A stretch of 64,000 nt of DNA, from contig NZ_CP083723.1 of the NCBI RefSeq assembly GCF_020150815.1, forward strand, positions 1,240,001 to 1,304,000. Direction: 5' to 3'. This document shows, in pieces, positions 31,865 through 33,640 of this stretch. The notes under the pieces are model-generated. The model worked only from the letters and a program-made list of their open reading frames with translations. It was not told the origin of the DNA and made no database searches. Position 1 is the stretch's first letter; each line of letters begins with the position of its first letter. Source of the stretch: Haloprofundus salilacus. Its GTDB lineage: Archaea > Halobacteriota > Halobacteria > Halobacteriales > Haloferacaceae. The position numbers and the translations under genes are program-made.

Positions 31865-33640
31865 CTACTGCGACTCGGCCAACCGCTCGACCCGGGAGAG
31901 CGAGTCGGCGCTCTCCGGCGTCTTGTCCTCGCGCACCGAGAGAAAGCGCGGGAACCGGAGCGCGTATCCTGAGGAGTACGTCGGCGAACGCTGAATCTCC
32001 TCGTAGCCGACCTCGAACACCGTCGAGGGCCGAATATCAACCTCGCGACCGTCCTGTGAGAGGATCTCGGGTTCGAGTCGCTCGGTCAACTCGGCGAGTT
32101 TCTCGTCGGTGATGCCGGTGGCGACCTTCCCGAGCGTGTGGAACTCCTCGTCCTCATCTCGCGCCGAGAGCAGAAACGTCCCGAGGAACTTCGCGCGCCG
32201 TCCCTCGCCCCACTCTGCGCCCGTTACGACGAGGTCCAGCGTCTCCACGCCCGGTTTTCGCTTCAGCCAGTTCCGCCCGCGCCGCCCCGGCGAGTACGTC
32301 GACTCGGGATCTTTGAGCATGATTCCCTCGTGACCCGCCTCGAGCGCGTCGGCTTCGACGTCGGCTATCTCGTCGGCGTCGGCCGAGCAAAGCAGCGTCG
32401 AAACGGCCGATTCGGCGTCGTCACCGTCGAGAACGCCGGTGAGCCGCGCGTGGCGGTCGACGAGAGGTTCTTCGAGCAAGTCGTCGCCGTCGGCGTGCAG
32501 GCAGTCGAAGGTGTGCAGGCGGAGCGTCACCTCCTCGCGCATCCGCTCGACGTCGTGTTTGCGGCGGAAGCGCCGGAGCACCTCCTGGAACGGAAGCGGG
32601 TCGCCGTCGTCGTCAACGGCGACGACCTCGCCGTCGAGAATCGCGGGCGCGTCGACCGACGCCTCGACGAACTCGACGATTTCGGGGAGCGCATCCGTCA
32701 CGTCCTCCATGTTACGGGAGAACACCGACACGTCGTTCGGTTCGCGGTGGATCTGGACTCGCGCGCCGTCGTACTTCGTCTCGACAGCCGCCTCCTCCCA
32801 CTCGTCGAGGGCGTCGGTGACAGTCCCCGCCTGCGCGAGCATCGCCTGGACGGGTCGCCCGACTTCGAGTCCCATCGCGTCCAGTCCGCCGACGCCGTCG
32901 CTTCGCTTCGCATGTGACGAGCCTCCGCTTGCGTTGTCTTCTCGCGGGCTCTGCCCGCTCGAATGGTCCGCGGAACTCTGTTCCGCGCTACTCGCGGAGA
33001 CGCCCTCGTCGCGGGCGACTTCGGCGACGTGGCCGTAGTCGTTCGACACCTGAATCGCGCGCTCGACGGTCTCGACGGGCACCTCGAACGCCTCCGCAAT
33101 CGCGTCTCGAACGGCGCCTTCGCCGACGCCGATGCGCATCTCCGAGAGGACGATGCGCGCGAGGTAGCGCGCCTCCTCCGGCGTCGTCCGGTTGAACAAG
33201 CCGAACAGCGTGTCAAGTTTCCGGTCTCGGCTGCCGGACCCTTCCGCTGCCGCGAGCGTGCGCAGTTTTCCGTCCACCTCGGCGACGCTCAGGTCGGTCG
33301 GCCCGCCCGAACCGAACGCCGCGAGTCCCCGTTGCCCGCCGAACTCGTAGCTGGCGGCGACGGTTCCGATTTCGCCGACTTCGGCGAGTTTCGTCTCGAC
33401 GTCCGAGGCGTCGACGTTCGGCCCGGCGGCGCGGGCGATAGCCTCGTAGCAGAGGTTCGGGCCGACGTCGAGCGTCGCCGACTGCCACGCCGGAAAGACG
33501 CGACCCTGAACAAACCGCGCGACCACCGCCAGTTCCGACTCCGCCTCGCCGAACGTCTCCGCCAGCAGCGAGACGGTTTCGAGGTCCGCCGACTCCGCCT
33601 CGATAGCTGCCATCCGGTCTGCAAACGCCGCGAACTCCAT
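31865..33640 (-). CDS. lig: ATP-dependent DNA ligase
   Basis: 591-aa replicative ligase of the archaeal/eukaryal type. The N-terminal DNA-binding domain (about 1-210) is followed by the adenylation domain with motif I ETKYDGAR (Lys289), motif III FDCLHADGDDLL and motif IV AGHEGIMLKD, then the OB domain with motif V WLKRKPG. An extra linker at about 213-250, rich in Ser, Ala and Asp, separates the first two domains and is encoded by palindromic DNA (32944-32987). A TATA-like AGTTAAACC (minus) lies about 27 bases before the ATG. Confidence 0.95.
   Translation of the reverse strand: MEFAAFADRMAAIEAESADLETVSLLAETFGEAESELAVVARFVQGRVFPAWQSATLDVGPNLCYEAIARAAGPNVDASDVETKLAEVGEIGTVAASYEFGGQRGLAAFGSGGPTDLSVAEVDGKLRTLAAAEGSGSRDRKLDTLFGLFNRTTPEEARYLARIVLSEMRIGVGEGAVRDAIAEAFEVPVETVERAIQVSNDYGHVAEVARDEGVSASSAEQSSADHSSGQSPREDNASGGSSHAKRSDGVGGLDAMGLEVGRPVQAMLAQAGTVTDALDEWEEAAVETKYDGARVQIHREPNDVSVFSRNMEDVTDALPEIVEFVEASVDAPAILDGEVVAVDDDGDPLPFQEVLRRFRRKHDVERMREEVTLRLHTFDCLHADGDDLLEEPLVDRHARLTGVLDGDDAESAVSTLLCSADADEIADVEADALEAGHEGIMLKDPESTYSPGRRGRNWLKRKPGVETLDLVVTGAEWGEGRRAKFLGTFLLSARDEDEEFHTLGKVATGITDEKLAELTERLEPEILSQDGREVDIRPSTVFEVGYEEIQRSPTYSSGYALRFPRFLSVREDKTPESADSLSRVERLAESQ
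32944..32987. repeat. two palindromes with identical TCT loop inside the ligase gene
   Basis: GCGGGC-TCT-GCCCGC (32944-32958) and CGCGGAAC-TCT-GTTCCGCG (32969-32987) are perfect hairpins 10 bases apart. They lie in frame in the interdomain linker, next to short repeats (CGCTTCG, 32899-32909). The coding strand reads them as SAEQSSADHSSGQSP. Confidence 0.85.

Follow-up and report, generated by a model that had tools for sequence, protein, structure and literature searches.

Palindromic elements that insert in frame into genes are, to our knowledge, known chiefly from Rickettsia, and the genome decay of Rickettsia has been offered as their setting. In the parts of the literature that treat them, the Rickettsia palindromic elements (RPEs) appear as short dispersed repeats that lie in frame in unrelated genes and encode a conserved peptide (PMC10969869, PMC3733652), with a CGTC tag at one end in the RPE of R. 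conorii (PMC3733652). The account of the PATEs of Haloquadratum walsbyi presents transposase-free elements with near-terminal palindromes, without terminal inverted repeats or target duplications, and with 52-bp terminal-only forms (PMC3119063). Passages on the GTAG-tagged REPs, which go with RAYT transposases, place GTAG at the foot of the hairpin and some REPs inside genes (PMC3733652). A paper on extragenic repeats of bacteria and archaea uses neither 'intragenic' nor 'in-frame' anywhere in its text (PMC12306157).

Here, we analysed a window of 64,000 nucleotides (the whole stretch of DNA under study) from Haloprofundus salilacus, in which a DNA ligase gene carries an in-frame palindromic insert. 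Judged from a comparison of present-day sequences, this insert is very probably (probability of about 0.86) a non-autonomous palindromic mobile element of haloarchaea. Supported directly are its repetition in unrelated genes, the empty sites, the unit length, the frame and the compensatory changes in the stems. A preceding sequence-only reading had likened the insert to RPEs; it was right in substance, with the correction that the unit measures 54 bp and the ligase insert is a 108-bp composite.

Like the RPEs in their described features, the haloarchaeal element is a dispersed multi-hairpin palindromic repeat that lies in frame in unrelated genes and encodes a conserved peptide. It differs in being archaeal and order-wide, in its 54-bp unit (108-bp composite) against about 150 bp in RPEs, and in running TAGC...GAGAAGA without a CGTC end tag. 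Compared by description, the PATEs appear closest in anatomy: the unit, too, is haloarchaeal and transposase-free, has palindromes close to both ends and shows neither terminal inverted repeats nor a clear target duplication. In-frame insertion with a coding peptide is not among the traits described in the part of the PATE account that we drew on (PMC3119063). As in REPs, the hairpin foot of the unit contains TAG (TAGC; GTAG in some copies), but TAGC is near constant while the preceding base varies (GATAGC, AATAGC), and two different hairpins follow in fixed order. With MITEs and SMRs the unit shares being short, non-autonomous and dispersed, but it lacks terminal inverted repeats, and no clear target duplication accompanies it. 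A literature search of titles and abstracts returned no description of this peptide or of in-frame palindromic elements in haloarchaea.

The ligase gene and its in-frame insert

The host gene encodes the ATP-dependent DNA ligase LigA of 591 amino acids on the minus strand (31865..33640), as assigned with NCBIfam and Pfam. The protein scores 983 bits against LigA_Halo (NCBIfam; cut-off 830), and the Pfam domains A_N, A_M and A_C are all found, the insert separating the first two. The ligase structure predicted by AlphaFold has a mean pLDDT of 36 and supports no claim here. Alignments of ligase genes and linkers place an in-frame insert of 108 bp, or 36 codons, at 32897..33004 (minus strand, as are all features below unless stated otherwise); its end points are ambiguous by 6 bp because GGCGTC is present on both sides.

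Within the insert, the 54-bp unit TAGC...GAGAAGA occupies 32937..32990 and codes for SAEQSSADHSSGQSPRE, with boundaries taken from filled and empty pairs in other genes. It reads 5'-TAGC, a 7+3+7 hairpin, an 11-nt connector, a 6+3+6 hairpin and GAGAAGA-3', and comprises 18 codons. Hairpin A (GCGGAAC-AGA-GTTCCGC, 32970..32986) is one flanking pair shorter than the 8-bp hairpin of the sequence-only reading, and hairpin B (GCGGGC-AGA-GCCCGC, 32944..32958) is the 6-bp hairpin of that reading. The connector GGACCATTCGA (32959..32969) is conserved among copies in alignment A2, and GAGAAGA (32937..32943) forms the right end, with the hairpins standing 4 and 7 nt from the unit ends. On the forward strand, the hairpins read GCGGGC-TCT-GCCCGC at 32944-32958 and CGCGGAAC-TCT-GTTCCGCG at 32969-32987, with a spacing of ten bases, and CGCTTCGCTTCG lies near 32900, close to the pair. 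Thus, the two hairpins ten bases apart and the nearby CGCTTCG repeats that had been noted from the letters are all present, in frame, in the linker between the DNA-binding and adenylation domains.

The unit is flanked by parts of an outer element. Its left part GGCGTCTCCGCGAG (32991..33004) is shared with L204, where a DEAD-helicase gene from another family holds a copy, and its right part CAACGCAAGCGGAGGCTCGTC... (32897..32936) contains the CGCTTCG repeats. Taking the unit out of the ligase insert leaves 54 bp, and 32 of 35 nt are identical to the unit flanks in L204, a match of the joined outer parts that none of 500 shuffles reached. By these alignments, the 108-bp ligase insert consists of a single unit nested in another repeated palindromic sequence. 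An outer pair of hairpins of this kind is seen in many copies, so composites of ~108 bp are common. The nesting recurs in IleS of six genomes of one genus, where three hold the unit, one the outer part alone and two nothing, and the unit sits inside the outer double hairpin in all three genomes that bear it.

We sought the ligase in 60 relatives and fetched 29, among which the linker was readable by motif in 21 and unmatched in eight. The supposition that relatives would be free of the insert was borne out: it is absent from all 21 readable linkers, including those of the four other genomes of the genus that were compared (G001, G002, G003 and G004). The extra DNA in the present gene amounts to 108 bp against G003 and G001, to 111 bp against G004, whose gene is short of one more codon, and to 113 bp against G002 in a split alignment. 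Ligases of other genera (L020, L026 and L038) carry long inserts, acidic and in part tandem, at another position upstream of the VERALQV helix; these are unrelated to the palindromic insert.

Ends, pairing and distinctness of the 54-bp unit

The unit ends are fixed through comparison of filled and empty orthologous sites. Fourteen copies from the genus were tried against stretches of the own genome or of G004; a partner region existed for nine, and for five there was none or one flank only. Filled L220 of G003, presumably a CarB-like gene by its motif, against empty L267 of the own genome gave GATGGG|54 bp|CATCG, L221 (G004) against L051 (own genome) gave GAGGA|54|CGACG, and L219 (G001) against L267 gave GAAGA|54|CGGCG. 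The own-genome copy L229 exceeds L280 of G004 by 54 bp, summed over a split gap. The IleS pair L245 and L246 differs by the inner 54-bp unit and, at other places, by small gaps that add up to 6 nt. The difference was 51 bp, not 54, between L223 and L053, and 51 bp also at a site filled in G000, G001 and G003 (L224, L226, L228) and empty in G004 (L278). L225 lies in a longer insertion and, like the five partnerless copies, gives no unit length. The filled and empty pairs examined showed no clear target duplication and no terminal inverted repeats. For the ligase, GGCGTC had been considered as a target duplication; this was dropped, as that hexamer also borders the unit in L204, and it may be element sequence.

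Alignment A2 was drawn from 36 copies, leaving out four identical rows (L187, L188, L193, L210) and L142 with its aberrant hairpin B. Across its 31 distinct copies, 97.9% of the pair cells are paired. Five of the 14 pairs have changed on both sides, against a mean of 1.0 in shuffles and with 0 of 500 reaching five, counts that are inflated because the copies share descent and are supportive rather than a probability. The pairing signal was lost when the partners were slid. The stems drift by compensatory pairs, and the loops are free. The TCT loop is indeed the same in both ligase hairpins, as had been pointed out, but loops vary freely among the aligned copies, and the identity is coincidental rather than a family signature.

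Judged by palindromes alone, the locus would stand out little. The window holds 63 perfect hairpins with 3-base loops and arms of at least 6 (29-51 in 20 Markov shuffles); for arms of at least 8, the count is 12 (0-11 in the shuffles). In 464 kb there are 6 close hairpin pairs with summed arms of at least 14 and 3-base loops, where five shuffles gave 0-4, a weak excess. Such triloop hairpins are only moderately commoner than in shuffles, so the pair by itself is weak evidence; it is homology to other places that puts the ligase hairpins beyond chance. Exact counts are misleading here, as CGGAACNNNGTTCCG occurs at 4 places in the genome and GCGGGCNNNGCCCGC at 3, below its reversed control (10). 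The expectation that the hairpins recur in the genome therefore did not hold for exact copies, which are near unique and would have failed a simple exact-hairpin test, but it did for the unit: a covariance model found two further double-hairpin copies besides the ligase (E 2e-16 and 3e-11).

Spread among genomes and host genes

BLAST with a 66-nt core gave matches at E<=0.01 in 226 of 392 genomes of the order, a lower bound with two candidates scored per genome, in 66 of 95 genera and with identities of up to 95%. Such identity extends over ~60 nt between copies in different genes and families. The covariance model, built on 31 copies, was positive in 57 of 79 genomes and zero in 22, with 1-37 copies per genome (median 6) and 445 in total, again a lower bound, since scoring covered 70 candidates in each genome. 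Within the genus, it detected 22 copies at E<=1e-3 in five genomes, three of these copies in the present one. In a sample of the phylum, 26 of 294 genomes matched, and all 26 belong to the order of the window. A scan of 84,980 genomes for GCGGAACNNNGTTCCGC was dominated, among the matches listed, by unrelated bacterial hairpins, and the haloarchaeal rows alone were carried forward. Both hairpins and the connector also occur together in a Natronococcus gene and a Halomarina gene, which we take by eye to be CBS-domain-like and peptidase-like, respectively, in a Haladaptatus spacer and in a glycyl-tRNA synthetase gene. In a siroheme-decarboxylase-like gene, one of 11 carried the unit; six of the ten others were checked at the DNA level and all six were empty. 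Eight haloarchaeal plasmid records matched, seven of the matches lying in annotated coding sequences (merA in five, CobN and a mismatch-repair gene), and three plasmid copies that were translated read through without stops. Phage records gave no match to the unit. A derivation of the copies from one ancient paralogous domain was rejected, as it would need related genes and the copies lie in unrelated ones.

Read in frame +0, the unit starts with a stop; +1 gives SAEQSSADHSSGQSPRE, and +2 is open and basic. The favoured frame follows the pattern SAExxSADxSSGxxPRE, which is hydrophilic, stop-free and 18 residues long; SSADHSSGQSPR is an example of the peptides in such inserts. Of the 30 best BLAST loci, 26 had this SAE frame within an open reading frame of at least 150 aa, or 27 with L200 re-phased; a second count that placed L194 differently gave 28 of 30. 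The SAE frame was the longest of the six frames at just 16 of 30 loci because GC-rich DNA holds long spurious frames. Named families were matched by 17 of the 19 SAE-frame proteins scanned and by L174 (glycyl-tRNA synthetase), and no named family matched L190 and L195. The host families include class I tRNA synthetases (L188 read as IleS, L208 as ValRS-like), CobN, P-type ATPase, FAD oxidase, an AMP-binding enzyme, TRM5/TYW2, DEAD helicase, CobJ/CbiH, methylaspartate ammonia-lyase and others. Coding DNA is not the sole target of insertion, as seen from L225 (G004), whose copy lies in the other open frame, and from intergenic copies, namely those at tRNA flanks in the genus and, among 20 stretches taken from G176, G209 and G178, the majority, which fall outside SAE-frame genes. 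Most close relatives of the ligase copy occupy one reading frame of real genes, and many other copies are intergenic.

In one genome (G176, C1 and C2; L298 and L310-L314), six closely similar composite copies lie in apparent spacers; this genome has no Y1 hit, and the similarity suggests a fairly recent spread there. Four Haloprofundus genomes, including H. marisrubri, have a double hairpin with changed stems and loops beside a gene judged tRNA-like by its look (L222, L235, L238, L240, L069).

Proposed course of insertion and rival explanations

As we picture it, the unit, a pair of triloop hairpins whose connector and ends are conserved, would insert precisely into genes and spacers, probably by way of a single-stranded hairpin intermediate. 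Where it lands in the right phase, the protein would gain 18 hydrophilic residues, simply added because the unit spans 18 codons without a stop in the SAExxSADxSSGxxPRE frame. Selection would presumably act against other frames, while the added peptide may be near neutral, and copies in surface loops and linkers would survive, the ligase linker being one such place. A tentative and rather doubtful extension is that the element is an order-wide one suited to being read through, moved by something other than the known Y1 transposases, which has long donated linkers and loops to essential archaeal enzymes.

Single-strand (HUH) transposition would give precise insertion, no duplication and hairpins near both ends. 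A Y1 (IS200/IS605) transposase was the mover that we favoured at first; it was set aside when the copy-number test failed. Over 79 genomes, copy number bore no relation to Y1_Tnp (Spearman -0.06, P 0.59), and 9 of the 16 genomes with 10 or more copies had no Y1_Tnp at E<=1e-10. Both results speak against the insert being a PATE proper, that is, a terminal-only remnant of IS200/IS605 that a Y1 HUH transposase mobilises in trans, with hairpins A and B serving as left- and right-end recognition; nor was a full IS with these ends found. The near-terminal palindromes and the lack of terminal inverted repeats and target duplication nevertheless match the Haloquadratum PATEs, and the exact GCGGAACTCTGTTCCGC of four other genomes of the family falls in tnpA genes, although the hairpins there have different connectors and may be unrelated. 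On balance, we consider this origin unlikely.

Orthologues with common sites (IleS in one genus, merA on five plasmids, one gene in three Haloprofundus genomes) would suit a spread of carrier genes by transfer and recombination with loss at many sites, but the recurrence of the same 54 nt across many unrelated genes, and sites in single species that are empty in close relatives, make this highly improbable. We lend equally little credence to retention for a function, be it as a structured mRNA element or as a useful hydrophilic linker: the pairing kept across copies and the hydrophilic, stop-free frame would fit, but the distribution of sites is patchy even between close relatives, which evidently manage with enzymes that lack the insert, and intergenic copies exist. 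Local template switching or slippage that favours triloop palindromes in GC-rich DNA is extremely improbable as the origin. Unrelated bacteria do show similar GGAAC triloop hairpins and hairpin arrays, and the stems remain perfect while changing, but local events cannot give a connector, ends and length that are common at up to 95% over ~60 nt; for the unit, the shared connector refutes it. The same process may explain why the stems stay perfect.

If the insert is a mobile element as we propose, its presence in free-living archaea across a whole order, in genes of ligase, tRNA synthetase, CobN, P-type ATPase and mercuric reductase, suggests that protein linkers arise more generally from peptides which selfish palindromes insert. 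Annotators should be cautious, as such insertions resemble lineage-specific domains. Movement, enzyme and protein cost can be tested, since comparable species hold filled and empty sites and some haloarchaea are genetically tractable.

Hairpin series of other kinds were seen alongside. Long triloop-hairpin arrays with varied stems and two alternating conserved connectors occur in L141 (1-8000) and L086 (Euryarchaeota CSMAG_2293). Y1 tnpA-like genes of several haloarchaea (L040, L041, L042 and L044, ~1480-1520; L152, ~3020) have an in-frame double hairpin right after a PK motif, whose stems differ between copies with the pairing kept. In the own genome, a TnpB-like gene carries three consecutive in-frame hairpins (L047, 12917-12993) at its C-terminal end, possibly its guide-RNA region.
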